DNA of 37,191 nucleotides from a virus. The DNA is taken from IMG/VR virus record IMGVR_UViG_3300032288_000806, positions 1 through 37,191 of that record; one strand, given 5' to 3'. Shown piece by piece: positions 1 through 37,191 of this stretch. Every line of letters starts with the position of its first letter. Positions within the stretch are counted from its first letter, which is position 1. The notes under the pieces are model-generated. The model did not search any database. It was not told the DNA's origin and saw only the letters and a program-made list of their open reading frames with translations. Both the position numbers and the translations under genes were made by a program.

Positions 1-123
1 GATGGAATATGCGGTTGAAAGCAGGGTTGGCTTTGGTGATTTTCTGCCTGACGTTTTTGGTTCTACCGATCTTCTTGGTCGCCTTGGTGATAGAGCGATT
101 GTTCTGGATTGGAAGTTTGGCGA
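1..123. repeat. Terminal direct repeat, left copy (circular junction)
   Basis: These 123 bases recur exactly at 37069-37191. The repeat lies inside a coding gene, and joining the copies restores one open frame. It therefore reads as the overlap of a circular or circularly permuted genome assembly, not as a transposon end or a functional repeat. The unique length is 37,068 bp. A genuine short terminal redundancy in the virion cannot be excluded from sequence alone. Confidence 0.95.
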
Positions 124-1584: not shown

Positions 1585-2058
1585 ATGGAAATTTGGAAAG
1601 ACGTACCCGGTTACGAAGGCCGATATCAGGTCAGTGATGAAGGCCGCGTAAAATCGTTTCGACGCCGCAAAGATGGTGTTTTGTTAGCGCCGGGGCGTAT
1701 GCCCTGCGGCCATCTTTCTGTGGCCCTTGGGCGCGGTCATTCGCGTTGCGTTCACGAATTAGTGCTTTTGGCTTTTGTGGGGCCGAGGCAACCGGGGCAA
1801 GAATGTTTGCATGGCAACGGTATACCATCAGACAATAATTTATCAAACCTTCGCTGGGGTACGCGCAGCGAAAACTTGCGTGATAAGACGCTGCACGACC
1901 AAAATAAGTTAAAGCTGTCCGACGTGATTGCGATTAAAGCGGCGTTAAAAAACTATCGTCGTGGATTGCAACGAGATTTAGCGCGCCAATACGGTGTAAC
2001 CGAAAGCACTATTTCAGCAATTAAGTTGGGGAAGCAACATGGCTATATTGTGGGTTGA
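1585..2058 (+). CDS. NUMOD4/HNH homing endonuclease
   Basis: This 157-residue protein has three parts. The NUMOD4 DNA-binding motif is at residues 3-25 (WKDVPGYEGRYQVSDEGRV). An HNH_3-type core spans about 55-100 (H57, H76, N78, and the NLSNLRWGT and EN signature). A C-terminal helix-turn-helix-like segment lies at about 110-152 (LARQYGVTESTISAIKLGK). Such enzymes cut a related phage genome lacking the gene and spread by recombination. It is free-standing, with no intron visible. Its end overlaps the DNA polymerase start by 20 bases, and the polymerase ribosome-binding site lies inside this gene. A GGAAGAGTGAG site precedes its own ATG. Confidence 0.9.
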   Translation: MEIWKDVPGYEGRYQVSDEGRVKSFRRRKDGVLLAPGRMPCGHLSVALGRGHSRCVHELVLLAFVGPRQPGQECLHGNGIPSDNNLSNLRWGTRSENLRDKTLHDQNKLKLSDVIAIKAALKNYRRGLQRDLARQYGVTESTISAIKLGKQHGYIVG

Positions 2059-3994
2059 CATGGAAACTAGGAGCCGTTGCGACCTTCGCAGCCGCGGCGT
2101 GTACAATTACGCGCAGGACGCCAGCACCGACGTGCTGTGTATGTCATACGCATTTGACGACGAAGACGTGCGGACGTGGCTCCCCGGTGAGCCTTTCCCG
2201 CAGGCCGTCCGTGACCACAAGGGGCTGGTGTACGCGCACAACGCAGCGTTCGAGCGCCTGATATTCTGGTATGTCCTTCAGGTAAACTTCAAGCTGGAGC
2301 AGTTCTACTGCACCGCAGCGCAGGCGCGCGCTAACTGTGCGCCGGGCAGCCTTGAGGATGTGGGCCGCTTCGCTGGCGCTACCATGAAGAAAGACCATCG
2401 CGGCGGACAGCTAATCCGCGCGCTATCCATCCCGCAAGCCGACGGCACGTTCCGTGAAGACGCGAAGCTGTTGCAGGAGATGGTCGATTATTGCGAACAG
2501 GATGTCCGTGCCATGCGCGCTATCGCGCAGGCGCAGCGCCCGCTGTCGGCTGATGAGTTGGCCGACTACCACACCAACGAGCGCATCAACGACCGCGGCG
2601 TCCTGCTTGATAAGCCGCTGGCGCAGGCGGCGGTCGCGTATTCAAACGCAGAAACAATTGAAATACAGAACTTGGTGTGTGAGATAACGCAGCGGGAGAT
2701 CACAAGCGTTCGCAGCACGCGCATGAAGGACTGGGTTTGGGACCGCGTCGGGCCTGAGTCCCGTAAACTTATGACGCTTGTCAAGAATGATCGTGAGCAT
2801 AGATGTTTAGATAAAAACGTGCGCGCCAATTTGCTGGTGTTAGCGGAGGGGAGCCCTGATGAAATACCATCGGAAGTTGCGGATGTCATCCAGTGCGCGG
2901 ACGATCTGTGGGCATCGTCCGTTGCGAAGTTCCAACGTGCGGCGGCGCTTGCTGATGAGGAGGATTTTCGCGTTAGAGGAGCGTTCGTATTTTCTGGAGG
3001 CAGTGCTACTGGGCGCGCTTCATCGTTTGGGCTTCAAGTCCATAACTTCCCAAGAAAGTGCGCCGCCGACCCTGCATTAGTGCGGCAGGCTATGGTGCGC
3101 GGCCACAGTATAGTCCCTGAGCATGGCCGCCGCGTGACGGACGTGCTGAAAGGGATGCTACGCCCTGCGCTGATGGCCGACAAAGGCAAGCGCCTTGTTG
3201 TTGCCGATTGGGCTGCGATTGAAGCGCGGGTGACGCCGTGGGCGTCCAACAGCGTCTTCGGCGCAAACAAGCTAGACATCTTTGCCAAGGGTGAGGATGT
3301 CTACAAGCACAACGCTATGGCGACATTCCATGTCGGCTATGACGACGTTGACAAAGACCAGCGTCAGATCGGTAAGGTGCAAGAGTTGGCGTGCGGCTTC
3401 GCCGGTGGTGTCGGAGCCTTCGCCAGCATGGGCCGCATCTACGGCCTGACGATGTCGGAGAGCGACGCAAAGCGCATGGTGGACGCGTGGCGCAGGGCTA
3501 ACAAGTGGGCTGTGCCTTACTGGTCTGGCCTTGAGGAAACCTATATGCGCGCCATGCGTAACAAGGGCCGCGAGTTTACCATCGGGCGCGTCACATATTT
3601 ATTCGACGGACTGCATCTTTGGTATGCTCTTCCGTCTGGCCGTGTGTTATGTTATCCTTTCGCCCGCTTCGATGAGGAGGGCAATCTAACCTATGCCAAG
3701 GCTTCATGGAAGCCAGCCGCAGACGCTAAGGAGTGGCCTAGAGCGCGGCTATGGCGCGGTCTGGCGTGTGAGAACATCACGCAGGCTGTCGCTAACGACC
3801 TGCTGCGCGCCGCCTTACGTCGGTTGGATGACGTAGTGCTGCACATCCACGATGAAATCGTCTTGGAAGTGCCAGAAGATGAAGCCGAAGCCGCCGCAGC
3901 GCGGCTGGTGCAGATTATGTGTGAGCCGCCACCTTGGGCCGCAGGGCTACCCCTGAACGCTGAAGTGGCAATTATGGAACGATACGGGAAATAA
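2039..3994 (+). CDS. Family A DNA polymerase with 3'-5' exonuclease
   Basis: The 651-residue protein begins with a DnaQ-like proofreading domain: Exo I is D7 and E9 in LWVDMET, Exo II is AHNAAFE near 65-71, and Exo III is YCEQD near 152-156. The polymerase domain has motif A (VVADWAAIEAR, D390), motif B (R442 and K446 in RQIGKVQ) and motif C (HDE at 604-606). These are the catalytic residues of pol I-type enzymes. It has no 5'-3' exonuclease domain, as is usual in phages. The first ATG (2039) is preferred because the Exo I beta-strand begins at residue 3, and a GGGGAAG site lies upstream. It should replicate the genome with the downstream primase-helicase. Confidence 0.96.
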   Translation: MAILWVDMETRSRCDLRSRGVYNYAQDASTDVLCMSYAFDDEDVRTWLPGEPFPQAVRDHKGLVYAHNAAFERLIFWYVLQVNFKLEQFYCTAAQARANCAPGSLEDVGRFAGATMKKDHRGGQLIRALSIPQADGTFREDAKLLQEMVDYCEQDVRAMRAIAQAQRPLSADELADYHTNERINDRGVLLDKPLAQAAVAYSNAETIEIQNLVCEITQREITSVRSTRMKDWVWDRVGPESRKLMTLVKNDREHRCLDKNVRANLLVLAEGSPDEIPSEVADVIQCADDLWASSVAKFQRAAALADEEDFRVRGAFVFSGGSATGRASSFGLQVHNFPRKCAADPALVRQAMVRGHSIVPEHGRRVTDVLKGMLRPALMADKGKRLVVADWAAIEARVTPWASNSVFGANKLDIFAKGEDVYKHNAMATFHVGYDDVDKDQRQIGKVQELACGFAGGVGAFASMGRIYGLTMSESDAKRMVDAWRRANKWAVPYWSGLEETYMRAMRNKGREFTIGRVTYLFDGLHLWYALPSGRVLCYPFARFDEEGNLTYAKASWKPAADAKEWPRARLWRGLACENITQAVANDLLRAALRRLDDVVLHIHDEIVLEVPEDEAEAAAARLVQIMCEPPPWAAGLPLNAEVAIMERYGK

Positions 3995-4005: not shown

Positions 4006-6354
4006 ATGAGTGAGGATCGCACGAAGTTCATAGAGTATATAACTGGCTTGGCGACGGACAATGTGGGCGAGACAGCCCTTGTTGTGCGCCAGAAGCCGCA
4101 GCACGACAGCGACGGCAACCTGATGTATCACGCAGACGGCGCGCCGAGGGCTACGTTCCCTGCGTTCCTACCAGAAAAGACCCGCATGAAAGAAGGCGAG
4201 GCATGGTATGTCAACACAGGCGCGTTCATCGTTGACCGCTTTGTAGACGGCAAGCCAGCCGCTAAGTCCAGCAACGTCGAGTATGTGCTGTTCATGATGC
4301 TGGATGACGTTGGCACGAAGTCCAAAGAGCCGCCGCTAGCGCCGACATGGATACTAGAAACCAGCGAAGGTTCGTTCCAGTGGGGCTACGCGTTCAGCGA
4401 ACAGCCCAAGAAGGGCGACTTCTGCGCTGCCATCAAGGCCATAGCTGATGCTGGCTACACCGATCCGGGCGCGACTAACGCTGTCCGTAACTGTCGCATT
4501 CCCGGCAGCGTCAACCTGAAGCAAGGGCGCAATAACTTTGCTGCACGGCTGGTATCGTTCAACCCTGAGCGTGAGTATACGCTAGAGGAGATATGCACGG
4601 CGCTGGACGTTACGCCAGAGGAAGGCGACACAGCCGACTATAAAACTGTGCAGTTGCGCGACACTGGGCAAGACAACGTCCTTGCATGGTTGAGCGAACA
4701 GAACCTAGTCCTTAGCGCGCCTAACGCTGACGGCTGGTGCGGCATCGTCTGCCCTAACCATGCAGAACACAGCGACGGCATGATCGAAGCGCGCTACAAG
4801 CCGCTCGACCGTTCGTTCTGCTGCTATCACGGTCACTGCCAAGACTTAGACAGCCGCACGTTCCTTGATTGGGTAGCCAACAACGGCGGTCCGAAGGCAA
4901 CGCCGGGGTTGCGTGACGAACTAATCGCAGAGCGCATGGCGTCGCTGCTTGACAAGATAGCACCGACCGAAGCCTTCCCTGATGAGGCCGCAGCGCGTGT
5001 GCGTGAGGTTGAAAAGAAAGAAGCCGGACGGCTGGAACAAAACGAATGGTTCGAGCGTTTCGCTTATATACAGTCTGATGACTGCTATTTTGACATGGTG
5101 ACCCGTCAAGAGATAGCCCGCAACGTCTTTAACGCGTTGTTCCGTCACGTTGACTGCCGCTCCATCCACAAGAAGACGCAGCGGGTGCAGTCATCCATCT
5201 ATTTTGATGAGCGTCGGCAGGATCGCGGCGCGCCTGCGCTGTCGGCAGTGACGTTCGCCGCTGGCGATGACGTTCTGGTGACGCGTGACGGTCTGGTCTA
5301 TGGCAACCGCTGGACGAACGCCCGCCCTGATGTGTCGGGCAGCGACAAGATTGCAGACCATGATGTCGAGCCTTGGCTTGAGCATTGCCGCAATCTGGTG
5401 GCCGATGATGTCGAGTTAGACCACATCCTTAACGCTATGGCGTTCAAGATACAGAACCCACACATTAAGATTAACCATGCCATCCTGATTGGCGGCGATG
5501 AAGGCGCGGGTAAGGATAGTATGTTCCAGCCGTTCCTGTGGGCGCTGGGCGGTAAGCATTGGCGCAACAGGTCAGTCATTGAGGCTGGCGGCTTGGACAG
5601 CCAGTGGGGCTATGCGCTTGAGGCTGAAGTTGTCATTCTGAACGAACTAAAAGAGCCAGAGGCACGCGAACGTCGCGCTATGGCTAACAAGCTGAAGCCG
5701 TTGATCGCTGCACCACCTGAAACGCTGTCGGTCAACCGCAAGGGGATGCACCCTTACGAATTGGTCAACCGCCTGATGGTGATTGCCTACACTAACGATC
5801 CGCTGCCTATCACGCTGCCTACGCAAGACCGCCGCTGGTTCTGCGTCTGGACGCACGCGCCGCGTATGTCAGTGCCAGCAGCTAAGGCGTTGTGGTCATG
5901 GTATGAGAACGGCGGCTATGAGAAGTGCGCCGCTTGGCTGCATCAGCGTGACGTGTCGTCGTTCAACCCTGCTGCTGCACCACCAGTGACCGAATGGAAG
6001 CTGAACATGGTCGAGCATGGTATGAGCGTAGCCGAAAGCTATCTGGTAGACCTGATGCGCGCGAAGTCGGGCGTGTTTGCCGATGGTGTCATTGGTGGGC
6101 CGTTCCATCGTATCTGCGATGCGCTGGCGATTAACGTCCCTGCTGGCGTGAAGATACCGCAGGCGGCGCTGCTTCATGCGTTAAAGGAAGCTGGTTGGAT
6201 TGACATGGGGCGCATAGGTTCAACTGAACTGCCAACCAAAAAGCACATTTTTGTCGCGCCTGATATTGTTAAGCTGCACAGCAAGTCTGAATTGCGCCGC
6301 ATGGCGGACGAACTGCCTAAGCCAACCGCAATGTCAAATTTAGGCAAGAATTGA
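4006..6354 (+). CDS. Primase-helicase fusion (RepB/AEP-like primase plus DUF5906-type helicase)
   Basis: The 782-residue protein combines two replication activities. Residues 90-185 resemble the RepB/archaeo-eukaryotic primase fold: an acidic pair at D100-D101 (MMLDDVG) and R-x2-R-x-PGS-x-N around 161-170. A cysteine/histidine cluster at 245-278 (C245, C249, H252, C272, C273, H275, H277, C278) may bind zinc. The C-terminal ATPase is an SF3/D5-like helicase of the DUF5906 (NrS-1-like) type. Its Walker A is GGDEGAGKDS at 496-505, the Walker B-like strand is EVVILNE (541-547), the sensor is AYTND (594-598) and the arginine-finger candidate is DRR (608-610). It starts 11 bases after the polymerase, behind AAAGGAG. 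Helicase assignment is strong; primase activity is inferred. Confidence 0.88.
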   Translation: MSEDRTKFIEYITGLATDNVGETALVVRQKPQHDSDGNLMYHADGAPRATFPAFLPEKTRMKEGEAWYVNTGAFIVDRFVDGKPAAKSSNVEYVLFMMLDDVGTKSKEPPLAPTWILETSEGSFQWGYAFSEQPKKGDFCAAIKAIADAGYTDPGATNAVRNCRIPGSVNLKQGRNNFAARLVSFNPEREYTLEEICTALDVTPEEGDTADYKTVQLRDTGQDNVLAWLSEQNLVLSAPNADGWCGIVCPNHAEHSDGMIEARYKPLDRSFCCYHGHCQDLDSRTFLDWVANNGGPKATPGLRDELIAERMASLLDKIAPTEAFPDEAAARVREVEKKEAGRLEQNEWFERFAYIQSDDCYFDMVTRQEIARNVFNALFRHVDCRSIHKKTQRVQSSIYFDERRQDRGAPALSAVTFAAGDDVLVTRDGLVYGNRWTNARPDVSGSDKIADHDVEPWLEHCRNLVADDVELDHILNAMAFKIQNPHIKINHAILIGGDEGAGKDSMFQPFLWALGGKHWRNRSVIEAGGLDSQWGYALEAEVVILNELKEPEARERRAMANKLKPLIAAPPETLSVNRKGMHPYELVNRLMVIAYTNDPLPITLPTQDRRWFCVWTHAPRMSVPAAKALWSWYENGGYEKCAAWLHQRDVSSFNPAAAPPVTEWKLNMVEHGMSVAESYLVDLMRAKSGVFADGVIGGPFHRICDALAINVPAGVKIPQAALLHALKEAGWIDMGRIGSTELPTKKHIFVAPDIVKLHSKSELRRMADELPKPTAMSNLGKN

Positions 6355-8280: not shown

Positions 8281-8465
8281 TATCTTAACCTTGTGATGAA
8301 CGTGACGCCCTCAACGGTGCGGCACTTGAAAGCCTTACCATGGCGGATGCCGTATTGTGAGACGTTGCGGCTGGTGCGCTTGGCATCGCCGCGCTTGGCG
8401 CCTGGCATAGTGGCGCTCTCGCCAACCTCTAGCGTTCCCATTGGGTAAATCATAGGTCTAGCCAT
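8280..8465 (-). CDS. Small basic protein of unknown function, C-terminal similarity to 6480-6680
   Basis: The start chosen is the ATG at 8465, which gives 61 residues beginning MARPMIYPMGTLEVGE. It overlaps the stop of the upstream gene in TAATG, and GGGGG lies just upstream. An in-frame ATG five codons earlier (8480) is possible. The protein has a short beta-like N-terminus, a helix rich in K/R (AKRTSRNVSQYGIRHG) and a final strand (GVTFITRLR). The shape suggests a small nucleic-acid-binding protein, but this is inference. Confidence 0.75.
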   Translation of the reverse strand: MARPMIYPMGTLEVGESATMPGAKRGDAKRTSRNVSQYGIRHGKAFKCRTVEGVTFITRLR

Positions 8466-8998
8466 TATTCGCACCCCCAAACTTGCGTTGATGTCTTTAT
8501 GTCAGTCGGCCAGCCTGCGTCTTCCGTGAAGCTGCGCTCTTCGAATAGAACCATGTTGGTCGGCCTGATCAACAGTCTATCGCCTGTCGTTCGCATAAAC
8601 ATAAATTCCTTTGATTGTTCGGGCGCTGCGCTGAACCCGTCACCATGTGGGCAAGCGGTGAACAGACAGGTCGCGCGGCTTTCTGTCCCGTCATAACGCG
8701 CTGTCAGGTCTGCCAAGTATACATATTTGATAACATCAAATTCTGTGCCGTAGCAGTCCCAGACTTGCGCTTGCTGCAATGTCCAATAGGGCCAAGGGTC
8801 GGCACTAAACGCTAACGCATGGGGCGGAACGTTGCGGTAGACAGCGCCACATTCCAGCATCACATGGCAACCCCATGCGCGGTTGGGTGTCGAGCGTAAC
8901 GCAAACCAAACGGCAGGCTCAAAGCCTTTGCCGCCCTTGCGGATAAATGCGCTGTCAACGTAAACGTAGAGGTGGTTCGGCAGGTTGCGGCTGCTCAT
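8465..8998 (-). CDS. Hypothetical protein, 177 residues
   Basis: This is the largest protein of the leftward unit. It is rich in aromatic residues, cysteine and histidine, with YVYVDSAFIRKGGKGF near the start, AWGCHVMLECGAVYRN near 42-57 and TACPHGDGF near 118-126. The composition suggests a compact globular enzyme or a metal-binding protein, but I cannot match the Cys/His pattern to a family. Its ATG overlaps the upstream stop (ATGA). The downstream gene starts in its stop codon. Confidence 0.82.
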   Translation of the reverse strand: MSSRNLPNHLYVYVDSAFIRKGGKGFEPAVWFALRSTPNRAWGCHVMLECGAVYRNVPPHALAFSADPWPYWTLQQAQVWDCYGTEFDVIKYVYLADLTARYDGTESRATCLFTACPHGDGFSAAPEQSKEFMFMRTTGDRLLIRPTNMVLFEERSFTEDAGWPTDIKTSTQVWGCE

Positions 8999-11044: not shown

Positions 11045-11078
11045 GGTGTCTCACTCCATTGCGTTGTTGATGCCCTCT

Positions 11079-11105
11079 TATGTACCCTCTTACTCATGCT
11101 GTCAA
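11079..11105 (-). promoter_or_regulatory. Leftward promoter
   Basis: On the minus strand TTGACAG (-35) is followed after 12 bases by GGTACATA, close to the alphaproteobacterial -10 form GCTANAWC. Transcription would start near 11072 and give a short leader before the ATG at 11044. TAAGAGGG occurs twice around the -10 box and GAGAGGGCA lies again near 11138-11146, so a repressor or activator may bind here. Confidence 0.65.
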
Positions 11106-11144
11106 CAACAAAATGTGTTGCGAATAAAAAGATTTTATGCCCTC

Positions 11145-11730
11145 TCAAAATAGTCATTTGGCTTTTCTAAATGACCTAACCATAGCCTAACTTATGACTA
11201 TTTTTGATCCCGCGCGAATGGCGCGAAAATTGTTAGGTGAAAAATTAGGCGAAATAGTCAAAAGTTAGGCTATGAAAACAGCCGAAATAGCCTAGGAAAA
11301 AATGGCTCATTTGCGCGGGTTACAAGGGGAGTTAGGCGATCTAGGCTATGAGATGTTAAGTCAGTTTCAGAAAAGTATATAATTAACCTATATGGTTAGA
11401 ATATAACTTTCTAGTAAGCGACTTCCAAATCGATAGCCTAGAACGCCCATGTAGTTGACTAACACAGTTAGAGGGCCGCCACTCGCCTACGCAGTCATGG
11501 CACGCCTACGCAATTTTGTTGCGCGGCTCATGCCCCGATATCGATTGGCTTTTGCATAGCCTAGATCGCCTATGTGTTTTTACGCGAGCGTAGCTAGCCA
11601 GCCAGCAGATGTGTTTTTGCGAACCGCTCGCAACATGGAAAGGGAAAGGCCATTTCTAATTCCAGCAAGAACAGAACAAGAACGCTAATCGCACAGCGCA
11701 ACGCGAGCCAGCAAACGCAAGCCAGCCTAT
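11145..11730. repeat. Array of GCCTA/TAGGC repeats with an 18-bp inverted repeat
   Basis: GCCTA or its complement TAGGC begins at 11185, 11246, 11266, 11290, 11333, 11342, 11436, 11485, 11504, 11559, 11568 and 11725. The fullest unit, CATAGCCTAGATCGCCTATG at 11555-11574, is a near-palindrome of two CATAGSCKA half-sites. Eighteen bases of it recur inverted at 11333-11350, and a third copy at 11432-11451 matches 17 of 20. The pattern fits binding sites of a dimeric protein, such as iterons of an origin or operators. No initiator gene is recognised in the window. Confidence 0.85.
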
Positions 11731-11761
11731 GACTGAAAACAAAAACCAGAAAATATTTGAC

Positions 11762-11783
11762 GGGGAGGGGTAGGGCCGGTGGG
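11762..11783 (+). other. G-quadruplex motif
   Basis: Four runs of three or more G occur on the plus strand: GGGG, GGGG, GGG and GGG, with loops of 1, 2 and 5 bases. This satisfies the usual G3+N1-7 rule. It starts immediately after TTGACG at 11757-11762, a perfect -35 box for which no -10 box is visible. It lies 45 bases upstream of the rightward promoter. A role in replication, packaging or promoter control is possible. Confidence 0.7.
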
Positions 11784-11827
11784 CCGCGACTCTGTGCCGG
11801 GTAGGTCCGCAAACAATTTTTTATTTT

Positions 11828-11856
11828 TTGCAAATTAGAATGCAACACACTATAGT
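11828..11856 (+). promoter_or_regulatory. Rightward late promoter
   Basis: TTGCAA (11828-11833) and TATAGT (11851-11856) are separated by exactly 17 bases, a good sigma70-type match (4 of 6 and 5 of 6). Transcription would start near 11863, directly before the ATG at 11864. An A/T-rich stretch precedes it, as in an UP element. It should drive the terminase and structural genes. Confidence 0.65.
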
Positions 11857-11863
11857 ACGCCCA

Positions 11864-12373
11864 ATGACTTTCTACTCACTGCCATTTACGCCAGAGCGGA
11901 CGCAGGCCACCGAGTCGCGGCTAGAGGCAATCTATGAAGCCGCCAAGTACGGACTAAAGGGTGACAGCCTCGCTATGGCCGCTGGATTAACCCCGCGGCA
12001 GTTCCGCGTGCTGGCGGATGCGGACCCGCTGGTGGAGATGGCAGAGATTAAAGGTCGTGCCGACGGCGAGATGACTGCGGCCAAGACTATGTACGAAGCG
12101 GCACGCGATGGCGACAGCAAGGCTGCGCTGGAGATACTCAAGCATCAGCACGGCTGGGTAGCCAAGCAGCAGATCGACGTGAACATCGACCAACAGATAA
12201 GCATTACAGGCGCACTGGAAAAAGCACAGTCGCGCGTCATCGAAGGGCTGTACACTGACGTGACGCCCCCAGCGCAGCTAGAGGATAACACATACCATGC
12301 AGCAGCCGATATACTCAGCCCAAGACGAGATGGAGTTGATGGCAAGGTTGTGGTCACCCAGCCTGAAGGATGA
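11864..12373 (+). CDS. terS: Small terminase subunit
   Basis: With the start at 11864 the protein has 169 residues. The segment RLEAIYEAAKYGLKGDSLAM followed by AGLTPRQFRVLAD is a helix-turn-helix typical of small terminases, which recognise the packaging site and recruit the large subunit. The helical middle (GEMTAAKTMYEAARDGDSKA) and a beta-like tail (IDVNIDQQISI) follow, as in P22-like TerS. Starts at 11828 (TTG) and 11840 (ATG) are in frame, but they lie inside the promoter and lack a ribosome-binding site. The 11864 start also lacks one and may be translated leaderless. It overlaps the large subunit gene by 77 bases. Confidence 0.85.
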   Translation: MTFYSLPFTPERTQATESRLEAIYEAAKYGLKGDSLAMAAGLTPRQFRVLADADPLVEMAEIKGRADGEMTAAKTMYEAARDGDSKAALEILKHQHGWVAKQQIDVNIDQQISITGALEKAQSRVIEGLYTDVTPPAQLEDNTYHAAADILSPRRDGVDGKVVVTQPEG

Positions 12374-13832
12374 CCCGCTAGCTTTCGTATTATATACATT
12401 CCCGTGGGGACAGCAGGGTACACCGCTGGAACATTTCCCCGGACCGCGCAAATGGCAGCGTCAGATACTCGGCGACCTGCGTGATCACATCAAGGCGAAC
12501 AATGGTAAGGTTGACTTCGACACTGCGCGGCTGGCGATTGCGTCAGGACGCGGTATCGGCAAGTCGGCGCTGGTGTCATGGCTGACGATATGGATGCTCT
12601 CCAGCAGAATCGGCTCGACAACTATCGTGTCGGCTAACTCTGAGGCGCAGTTGCGGTCGGTAACATGGGCAGAAATTACCAAGTGGCTGGCAATGAGCCT
12701 TAACAGTCACTGGTTTGAGATAGCGGCCACACGCATCATGCCTGCCAAATGGCTGACGGAACTGGTCGAGCGTGACCTGAAGAAAGGCACGCGCTACTGG
12801 TCAGTCGAAGGGCGGCTGTGGTCAGAAGAGAACCCTGACGCATATGCAGGGGTGCATAACTTCGACGGTGTGATGCTGATATTTGACGAAGCCAGCGGTA
12901 TTCCAGACAGCATATGGTCAGTGTCGGATGGTTTCTTCACAGAGAATACGCCGCATCGCTTTCATCTGGCCTTCTCTAACCCGCGGCGGAACACTGGCTA
13001 CTTCTACGAGACGTTCCACAGCAAGCGCGCGTTCTGGCAGACGCGCACTATCGACGCACGCGATGTCGAGGGTACAGATAAAAACCTGTATCAGCGCATT
13101 ATCGACGAATATGGGCCAGACAGCTACCAAGCCAGTGTCGAAGTCTACGGTAACTTCCCCTCAGAAGGCGACGATCAGTTTATCGGCAGCGCGCTGGTGG
13201 ACGATGCCATGCGACGCACACCTGCTAAAGACGCTACAGCGCCGATTGTTATCGGCGTAGACCCTGCACGCTTCGGGGCTGACGCCACCGTCATCGCTGT
13301 GCGCCAAGGGCGGGACATTTTAGAACTGCGGAGACACCGCGGCGCGGATACTATGGAAGTGGCCGGCCATGTCATCGACGCCATAGAAGAGTTTAAGCCT
13401 GCGCTGGTCTGCATCGACGAAGGCGGCCTAGGCGCAGGCGTCGTAGACCGGCTGAAAGAGCAACGGTACAAGATACGCGGCGTAAACTTCGGCAATAAGG
13501 CCAAGAATCAGACCATGTGGGGCAACAAACGGGCCGAAATGTGGGGCGCCATGCGGGATTGGCTGAAAACGGGCCATATACCGACCGATAGGTTCCTGAA
13601 AACGGACCTGATCAGCCCGCGCACCAAGCCTGACAGCAAGGGTACGCTGTTCCTAGAGAGCAAGAAGGATATGAAGGCGCGCGGCCTAGCCTCTCCTGAC
13701 GCTGCGGACGCCATAGCGGTCACGTTCGCGTTTCCTGTAGCATCTACTGATCCGCGTCTAGGACGCGTTGACAAGCGACGCACAAGCAGTTATTCTACGT
13801 CTGGAATTTCTACAAGCTGGATGGGCAGTTAA
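12297..13832 (+). CDS. terL: Large terminase subunit
   Basis: The 511-residue protein is the ATP-driven DNA packaging motor. The ATPase has Walker A SGRGIGKS (83-90), Walker B VMLIFDEA (192-199, D197 and E198) and coupling motif LAFSNP (224-229). The RNase H-like nuclease that cuts the concatemer has D322 (GVDPARFGAD), D374-E375 (CIDEGG) and D468 or D471 near the end (SPDAADAIA). Length is normal. The start overlaps the small subunit by 77 bases, with AGAGGA upstream. Confidence 0.96.
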   Translation: MQQPIYSAQDEMELMARLWSPSLKDDPLAFVLYTFPWGQQGTPLEHFPGPRKWQRQILGDLRDHIKANNGKVDFDTARLAIASGRGIGKSALVSWLTIWMLSSRIGSTTIVSANSEAQLRSVTWAEITKWLAMSLNSHWFEIAATRIMPAKWLTELVERDLKKGTRYWSVEGRLWSEENPDAYAGVHNFDGVMLIFDEASGIPDSIWSVSDGFFTENTPHRFHLAFSNPRRNTGYFYETFHSKRAFWQTRTIDARDVEGTDKNLYQRIIDEYGPDSYQASVEVYGNFPSEGDDQFIGSALVDDAMRRTPAKDATAPIVIGVDPARFGADATVIAVRQGRDILELRRHRGADTMEVAGHVIDAIEEFKPALVCIDEGGLGAGVVDRLKEQRYKIRGVNFGNKAKNQTMWGNKRAEMWGAMRDWLKTGHIPTDRFLKTDLISPRTKPDSKGTLFLESKKDMKARGLASPDAADAIAVTFAFPVASTDPRLGRVDKRRTSSYSTSGISTSWMGS

Positions 13833-14511: not shown

Positions 14512-14655
14512 ATGCCGCTGTCCAAATCGACAAGCAAAGCTGCGTTCCGCAAGAACATCAAGGCTGAATTGGCCGCGGGAAAAAAGCGTGACCAAGCGAT
14601 AGCGATAGCATATAGTGTGCAACGCAAAGCTGCACATAAAAAGGGAAGTAAATGA
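14512..14655 (+). CDS. DUF6496-like small basic protein, 47 residues
   Basis: The sequence MPLSKSTSKAAFRKNIKAEL followed by AAGKKRDQAIAIAYSVQRKA fits a widespread small family (I believe DUF6496) in which a basic helix is followed by a QAIAIAYSV segment. It begins two bases after the previous stop and its own stop overlaps the LAGLIDADG gene start. Nucleic-acid binding is plausible but not shown. Confidence 0.75.
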   Translation: MPLSKSTSKAAFRKNIKAELAAGKKRDQAIAIAYSVQRKAAHKKGSK

Positions 14656-15095
14656 ACCTTGCGTATGTGGCCGGTCTTATGGACGGCGAAGGCTCTATTG
14701 GTTTTACGCGTAGTCGCAGCGCAATGGTGCCGCGCATCAGTATCACTAACACTGACATTGAGGTGCTAGAAGATATTAAAACTGCTTTTGGTGGCCGTAT
14801 TCAGAAGTTAACGCGCGGCAAAGATAACTGGAAAACAGCATACGCATGGATTTTAAACAACTCCAAAGCTGTTGATTTTGCTGAAAAAATTGAGCCTTGG
14901 CTTCGCATCAAAAAAGAACAAGTGTGGCTTTTATACGCATGGGATGCTATTCGCCCCGGATATAACAAGCGTTGGGACGCTGAAAAACTTGACGTTCTTG
15001 GCCTGCTTAACGCACAATCTAAATGGCTAAATTATCGCGGTACCGGAAGACCGGAAACTAGCCCGATTGACGCCGAAATGAAAGCAGCAGTATAA
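14652..15095 (+). CDS. LAGLIDADG homing endonuclease
   Basis: The protein has 147 residues with a single motif, LAYVAGLMDGEGSIGF (residues 3-18), so the active enzyme would be a dimer. The acidic catalytic position is D10 or E12 within the motif. A beta-rich body follows, with YAWILNN near 57-63. It is free-standing between the basic-protein cluster and the portal gene, with start and stop fitted tightly (ATGA overlap before, one base after). Base composition is lower in G+C than the portal gene. It is the second homing endonuclease in this genome. Confidence 0.85.
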   Translation: MNLAYVAGLMDGEGSIGFTRSRSAMVPRISITNTDIEVLEDIKTAFGGRIQKLTRGKDNWKTAYAWILNNSKAVDFAEKIEPWLRIKKEQVWLLYAWDAIRPGYNKRWDAEKLDVLGLLNAQSKWLNYRGTGRPETSPIDAEMKAAV

Positions 15096-36787: not shown

Positions 36788-37191
36788 ATGCAACATAGTA
36801 AGATAGTCGGCGGTTCGACCGCCAAGCGCGTCATCGCCTGCCCCGGCAGCGTGGCGCTGGTAGACACAGTCCCGCCAAAGCCCAGCAGCAGCTACGCCGA
36901 CGAAGGCACGCTCCTGCACGACACCATCGCGTCTATATTAGAGCGCGACCTTGACCCGTACAGCATGGTTGGCACGACCTATGAGAAGACCGTGCTGACT
37001 GAAGCACTGGTCGATGACAAGCTGATACCGGCGCTGCGCGCGCTGGACGAGATAGACCCCAAGGGGGAGATGGAATATGCGGTTGAAAGCAGGGTTGGCT
37101 TTGGTGATTTTCTGCCTGACGTTTTTGGTTCTACCGATCTTCTTGGTCGCCTTGGTGATAGAGCGATTGTTCTGGATTGGAAGTTTGGCGA
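36788..37191 (+). CDS. DUF2800-like RecB/Cas4-type nuclease, N-terminal part
   Basis: This is the start of the gene that continues at bases 2-841. It begins MQHSKIVGGSTAKRVIACPG; C18 is the first of the four cysteines proposed to hold an iron-sulfur cluster. SYADEGTLLHD (about 39-49) is the helix typical of the RecB/DUF2800 N-terminus, with E43 and H48. AGTGAGGTACGAT gives the ribosome-binding site. Within the linear window the frame is open to the end only because the contig is cut there. Confidence 0.88.
   Translation, partial: MQHSKIVGGSTAKRVIACPGSVALVDTVPPKPSSSYADEGTLLHDTIASILERDLDPYSMVGTTYEKTVLTEALVDDKLIPALRALDEIDPKGEMEYAVESRVGFGDFLPDVFGSTDLLGRLGDRAIVLDWKFG
37069..37191. repeat. Terminal direct repeat, right copy (circular junction)
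   Basis: Identical to bases 1-123. The repeat keeps the reading frame of the nuclease gene: ATG at 37070 is 94 codons after the start at 36788 and corresponds to ATG at base 2. Confidence 0.95.

Follow-up and report, generated by a model that had tools for sequence, protein, structure and literature searches.

The repeat array in front of the terminase genes of IMG/VR virus record IMGVR_UViG_3300032288_000806 is, we think with good confidence, a theta-type replication origin, with iterons that would be bound by the wing of the phage primase-helicase and read at bases 7 and 9 by wing residues 738 and 740. Comparison with relatives and analogy with the SaPI/PICI replication systems make origin function most likely.

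Genome context of the array

The window analysed here is the whole of this record, 37,191 nucleotides. The two ends of the record (window 1-123 and 37069-37191) form an exact 123-bp direct repeat, and the record therefore very probably represents a complete, circular genome of 37,068 bp, though the collection lists it as linear. A DUF2800/PD-(D/E)XK nuclease frame, open over 481 aa, crosses the record junction. The genome is that of a podovirus-like, freshwater-type phage, with terminase, portal, scaffold, coat and DNA-ejection genes running rightward from 11.9 kb. Replication genes, coding for a family-A DNA polymerase (2039-3994) and the primase-helicase, are located at 2.0-6.4 kb, and a block of small unknown genes runs leftward from 11044 down to 6480. 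The array lies in an 819-bp gap bordered on the left by these leftward genes (last start 11044) and on the right by the putative terminase small subunit gene (ATG 11864).

11045..11863, no strand: divergent intergenic region holding the array (ORF list, sequence, relatives)
11864..12373, + strand: putative terminase small subunit (TerS), neighbour and control; an ORF named from its position upstream of TerL, with no array-tracking column
12297..13832, + strand: terminase large subunit (TerL), neighbour and anchor (PHROG 2; 80 relatives)

TerS (11864..12373) had no PHROGs match, the small ORFs of the window had no Pfam family above the cut-off, and searches of Rfam and for tRNAs gave no match. 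A DNA search of the array region in named phages returned only a 139-bp gene match. A 177-aa protein encoded at 8465-8998 (- strand) matches PHROG 3704, annotated as ferredoxin in the host-takeover category. HNH/homing endonuclease genes are found near replication genes (window 1585-2058 and 14652-15095) and, in the relative MW202483.1, one such gene (L464:10712-11158) directly adjoins the repeat array; a link between endonucleases near arrays and origin-directed nucleases is possible. Related contigs were found in assorted freshwater MAGs.

The array and its putative iterons

Between 11185 and 11729, the control region carries 12 GCCTA/TAGGC words, as an initial annotation had claimed; a first-order Markov simulation of the region (5000 runs) gave a mean of 1.8 and a maximum of 8. 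Because the genome total is 65, the probability of finding 12 words in the array stretch is about 2e-10. Longer words are more telling for the reality of the array than these counts: all six genome copies of ATAGCCTA and all four of CATAGCCTA lie within it. The larger units described in the same annotation, a 20-mer at 11555 with an 18-base inverted copy at 11333-11350 and a 17-of-20 copy at 11432-11451, were all found at those coordinates. The array also contains a 23-nt inverted pair, 11181-11203/11252-11274, that is 96% complementary.

11185, 11290, 11436, 11485, 11504, 11559, 11568, 11725, + strand: GCCTA words
11246, 11266, 11333, 11342, - strand: TAGGC words

The natural repeat unit is a ~10-bp site, ATaGCCTA(G/A)a. 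A motif (PWM) built from relatives identified eight sites in 11180-11576, and sites of at least 10 bits number seven in the array versus two in the remaining genome. Four weak GCCTA words (11246, 11485, 11504 and 11725) score below the threshold for the ~10-bp site. Two unit pairs show 9-bp tandem spacing (11329/11338 and 11554/11563). An AT-rich stretch (73% AT over 11361-11420) separates two sets of sites: the two closest to it on the left are inverted and the right-hand sites are direct. Scores below are from the PWM of the GST class, classes being named by the residues of the wing triplet.

11180..11193, + strand: iteron CCATAGCCTAACTT, outer left, score 17.0
11262..11275, - strand: iteron TCATAGCCTAACTT, left, inverted, score 15.7
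11285..11298, + strand: iteron AAATAGCCTAGGAA, left, score 14.9
11329..11342, - strand: iteron AGATCGCCTAACTC, left, inverted, 9 bp in tandem with the 11338 site, score 17.2
11338..11351, - strand: iteron TCATAGCCTAGATC, left, inverted, score 18.4
11352..11430, no strand: AT-rich stretch, candidate unwinding element, with the inverted set on its left and the direct set on its right
11431..11444, + strand: iteron CGATAGCCTAGAAC, right, score 19.1
11554..11567, + strand: iteron GCATAGCCTAGATC, right, 9 bp in tandem with the 11563 site, score 19.2
11563..11576, + strand: iteron AGATCGCCTATGTG, right, score 8.4

Arrays in relatives

Relatives were collected from IMG/VR by searching with the terminase and four primase-helicases, which gave several hundred loci; 169 non-redundant loci with both genes present and enough sequence before the terminase were compared. 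A repeated motif was found at the same place in 169/169, always immediately upstream of the terminase genes, while its word differed: ATAGCCTA(G), AATGACCCAAA, ATTGTCCACA, ATGACGTCC, ACTGCCGAAA and others. Conservation of the repeats in related phages, on which the first reading had been made to depend, thus holds for their position and not for their word. Among phages with 95% identical terminase, some are without any GCCTA repeats and have another repeated word in the same place. Alternative words at the array position include GACGTCA, TGACCCAG, TGACCCAA, TTGTCCACA and TGCCGAAA, and the repeat words are variants of one frame, roughly A-T-x-x-x-C-b7-A-b9-A.

Although the site word changes, relatives share the position of the array, its AT-rich centre and the way its ~10-bp sites are arranged. 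The richest 60-mer has a mean AT content of 75-78% across classes. In the KSR, ASG, GST and DSG classes, sites left of the AT-rich stretch are mostly on the minus strand and those to its right mostly on the plus strand (KSR: left, 125 minus and 28 plus; right, 229 plus and 55 minus); in the NSK class the orientation preference is weaker on the left. The iteron of the KSR class (e.g. L462:14616-15115) is TTGTCCACA, with 217 exact copies in 35 loci.

The primase-helicase as predicted initiator

The initial annotation had recognised no initiator. The gene at 4006-6354, however, codes for a primase-helicase with the Pfam domains RepB_primase (PF16793) and DUF5906 (PF19263), and its wing co-varies with the repeats (see below).

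4006..6354, + strand: predicted initiator, a primase-helicase of 782 aa; AEP/RepB-type primase, SF3/D5-like helicase and C-terminal winged helix (Pfam PF16793 and PF19263; NrS-1 by sequence; NrS-1, SaPI5 PriRep1 and poxvirus D5 by fold)
6199..6255, + strand: codons of the wing hairpin, residues 732-750 (AlphaFold strands 732-737 and 746-750; co-variation)

By sequence the protein matches NrS-1 polymerase (6k9c/6k9e; E 5.7e-11). The best fold match of the whole model was to the C-terminal region of the NrS-1 phage polymerase, followed by SaPI5 PriRep1 (7pds, 7ola) and D5-type helicases. AlphaFold models, both of the C-terminal domain alone and of the full-length protein, show a winged helix and place G738 and T740 in the wing loop (738-745), and the wing region with both residues has a pLDDT of about 85-90. 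With VIA-align, the C-terminal model matched winged helices in general (Z up to 6.0), which identifies a fold class rather than a family; a PDB sequence search with the C-terminal profile alone returned chance matches only, and Foldseek with the C-terminal model gave no match at E <= 0.001. The primase-helicase is encoded on the opposite strand in 3/169 loci, and in L045 and L037 (G004, G006) its gene is inverted relative to the array and terminase.

Wing residues co-vary with the repeat word

For each pair of loci, the similarity of repeated array 7-mers was compared with residue identity at each primase-helicase column, blind over 636 columns and with the effect of overall primase identity removed. 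Columns 738 (r=0.494) and 740 (r=0.446) ranked highest, followed by 737 (r=0.287) and 743 (r=0.286); the 95th percentile was 0.114, and shuffling arrays within clades gave a maximum of 0.203 in 60 permutations. Restricted to the clade of the window, the comparison gave r=0.644 for 738 and r=0.521 for 740. Mean array similarity was 0.263 for loci with the same wing triplet at primase identity <85%, and 0.083 for those with a different triplet at primase identity >=90%. After thinning to 77 loci, or after dropping any of the four largest classes, 738 always remained first; 740 came second in these sets, except that it fell behind 754 once KSR was removed.

Any signal of linkage would be expected in single-copy 7-mers of the same region as well, but these gave none at 738/740. 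The controls TerL, TerS, PolA, nucleotidyltransferase and small ORFs had no comparable column (all <= 0.21). Because wing residues 738 and 740 track the repeat word and the controls show nothing comparable, the primase-helicase encoded at 4006-6354 is very probably the binder of the repeats. Linkage is a poor explanation, since the terminase genes lie closer to the array than does the wing, at a distance of ~5 kb, and yet carry no comparable signal.

These data also bear on two other candidate binders. A partition or packaging (pac) site, with repeats bound by TerS or a ParB-like protein, would fit an array that in every relative directly precedes the terminase genes. However, the adjacent putative TerS is conserved in 169/169 loci despite the changing repeat word, and none of its columns tracks that word (best r 0.12); we consider a pac or partition site highly improbable. 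The initial annotation had favoured small unknown proteins (6480, 8280 and 9254). These are present in only 5, 28 and 25 of the 40 relatives with G738, the GCCTA-type residue, and are also found in relatives with other repeats; no tested small protein tracks the array. Binding by one of them or by another neighbour, with the wing signal a result of hitch-hiking, would agree with the small leftward genes adjoining the array and with a small DnaA-HTH protein in MW202483.1. On the other hand, small ORFs are patchy in relatives with GCCTA-type initiators and have no array-tracking residue, the DnaA-HTH family occurs in 1/26 records and not in the window, and linkage would affect the array-adjacent TerS, which is without signal, more than a wing 5 kb off. 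We therefore give this explanation very little credence. The DnaA C-terminal DNA-binding domain (PF08299) was seen as a small protein or frame at L464:7083-7379 (MW202483.1) and at G007:34758-34940; a PF08299 small protein was absent from 25/26 records searched.

An apparent two-residue, two-base code

To relate individual residues to individual bases, bases 7 and 9 were read by per-locus motif finding blind to the wing, loose regular-expression calls being too noisy. Counted in loci, which are not independent events, residue 738 paired with base 7 as G-T in 26/27, A-C in 40/43, K-C in 35/35, D-G in 6/6 and H-C in 3/4. Residue 740 paired with base 9 as G-A in 35/35 loci, R-C in 33/33, K-C in 2/2, S-A in 11/13, V-G in 8/11 and T-G in 6/9. 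Among all 782 columns, 738 was the most informative on base 7 and 740 the most informative on base 9. Within the G738 class, the motifs are CCTAG for GST, CCTAA for GSS and CCTAC for GSK; within the D738 class, they are ACTGCCGAAA for DSG and ACTGCCGAGA for DST.

In disjoint close pairs of loci, base 9 changed in 33/39 pairs with a changed residue 740 versus 2/11 without (p=8e-5). For 738 and base 7 the same comparison was not significant alone (p=0.078), a weaker result because A, H and K all pair with C. Of the blind motifs, 39/169 fell outside the common frame, and the NSK class (ATGACGTCC) fits it only in part. Out-of-sample trials beyond about 55-60% initiator identity gave one success, the KSR initiator L462, which had the predicted TTGTCCACA array. 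In L456, L457, L461 and L464 the prediction either did not hold or gave nothing readable, and several contigs in these trials were too short or lacked a readable array. The ASR (L456) and FAP (L464) initiators have clear arrays with words not predicted by the code, and no matching cluster was found for the HSR initiator in L461. Taken together, the pairings suggest that residues 738 and 740 of the wing appear to choose the repeat letters at bases 7 and 9, in which case the origin 'address' would be readable from the protein.

The array as a probable replication origin

The co-variation speaks to who binds the repeats, and not to whether replication starts there. For the latter, we considered the hallmarks of iteron origins. 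Short sites are clustered in one intergenic region, an AT-rich element lies between them, and the repeats are matched to a cognate initiator through co-variation, a genetic rather than a physical match. Of the two options left open by the initial annotation for a multi-site binding region, iterons or operators, the relatives and the co-variation favour iterons, and nothing specific supports operators.

The most economical reading is that the origin is probably opened by two oppositely oriented helicase assemblies. As suggested by the co-variation, the primase-helicase would bind the iterons via its wing, with the side chains of 738 and 740 selecting bases 7 and 9. If the protein acts like SaPI/PICI Rep, its binding to both iteron sets, which face in opposite directions, would load two helicase rings. 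These would open the AT-rich stretch between the sets, and the opened stretch could then be primed for synthesis by the phage family-A DNA polymerase (2039-3994).

GC skew, proposed earlier as a check on an origin at this place, did not change direction at the array, either in the window or in MW202483.1, a circular relative. In the window it turns elsewhere (detrended minimum at about 36.5 kb, maximum at about 19 kb) and follows the coding strand, a result that is neutral to mildly adverse for the origin reading. No perfect DnaA box was found in window 11045-11865. In most classes, the array region has a higher density of DnaA boxes (TTATNCACA) than whole loci do, and a DnaA box near the array occurs in 5/17 GST, 3/3 GSK, 10/18 NSK and 14/35 KSR loci.

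The lack of a skew signal at the array would also suit an operator or enhancer for two divergent promoters, bound by the primase-helicase or its wing domain to set early versus late transcription, with the true origin elsewhere. So would the position of the region, exactly between the leftward and rightward gene sets, and a promoter-like TTGCAA-17-TATAGT just before the terminase gene that is conserved in the relatives aligned. However, the binder suggested by co-variation is a replication enzyme rather than a regulator, and an origin would fit both the DnaA boxes in many relatives and the AT-rich stretch that is flanked, in several classes, by two site sets of opposite orientation. We regard a purely regulatory array as unlikely, although origin and operator roles may coexist in it. 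The promoter-like element (within window 11828-11866) ends 7 nt before the putative TerS ATG (11864) and the transcript may therefore be leaderless; the block CACACTATAGTACGCCCAATGAC at this site is kept in most relatives aligned.

Relation to known initiators

An iteron origin served by a self-sufficient D5/SaPI-type primase-helicase initiator is already known. The Rep proteins of SaPI/PICI are primase-helicases of the D5/SF3 kind with a C-terminal domain that recognises short iterons (PMC7581432), and their origins have two iteron sets around an AT-rich region (PMC6092414). The phage described here shares the D5/SF3-fold primase-helicase, a predicted C-terminal DNA-binding domain (7pds and 7ola matches; winged-helix model) and two iteron sets flanking an AT-rich region. 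It differs in being a full phage rather than a satellite, and in the distance between gene and origin: ori lies directly 3' of rep in SaPI/PICI, whereas here the array is about 4.8 kb off, beside the terminase genes, with leftward small ORFs between the end of the primase-helicase gene (6354) and the first strong site (11180). A further difference is that the specificity is not the same among members of one close family, two bases being tracked by two wing residues.

NrS-1 primase-polymerase, a primase with a hexameric SF3 helicase, is the closest solved relative by sequence and fold. It has been described with an 8-nt ssDNA recognition sequence that occurs twice in its genome, and with Tail and Head domains of novel fold (PMC7102993), whereas the window phage has a multi-site dsDNA array.

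The alpha protein of phage P4 combines primase, helicase and C-terminal winged-helix origin binding in one protein, and its sites are the ori/crr iterons. By this description it works alike, as a one-protein primase-helicase with a winged helix; no P4 alpha structure was among the fold matches listed. PMC6092414 mentions both P4 alpha and the ori cognate to it.

In PLE of Vibrio cholerae, the DNA-binding domain of the initiator RepA and the origin co-vary, only cognate pairs replicate, and this co-variation can arise under attack by an origin-directed nuclease, Odn (PMC8263062). The likeness lies in co-variation of an initiator DNA-binding domain with the origin among relatives; RepA differs in being a RepA_N-type initiator with ~30-bp semi-palindromic iterons and whole-domain swaps, in place of the residue changes seen here. 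Geminivirus Rep-iteron specificity involves an unrelated protein, the rolling-circle Rep of ssDNA plant viruses. We found no paper describing a wing-to-iteron code of this kind in the literature searched, which lay outside subscription journals. What appears new is an origin far from its initiator gene, fast-changing specificity and an apparent two-residue/two-base code within a close family.

The analysis thus names a likely binder for the array, an otherwise uncharacterised PrimPol-helicase, and provides a set of natural examples in which changes of origin word go with changes of wing residue. These natural initiator/array pairs make it testable how the initiator can change along with its sites, a dozen or more of them, without loss of replication. 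More tentatively, the origin address could be under diversifying selection, with small changes in two wing residues, and then concerted change of some 10-20 sites, producing many mutually exclusive replication specificities within one phage family; we hold this to be possible but rather doubtful. If true, it would amount to an origin-level self/non-self system, perhaps an escape from origin-directed nucleases or from replicative interference. The KSR iteron TTGTCCACA is identical to the DnaA box of several bacteria, and phage initiator and host DnaA could therefore compete for or share sites. With such a code, origins of related metagenomic phages become predictable from protein sequence, and one can propose which co-infecting phages would be able, or unable, to replicate each other's DNA.
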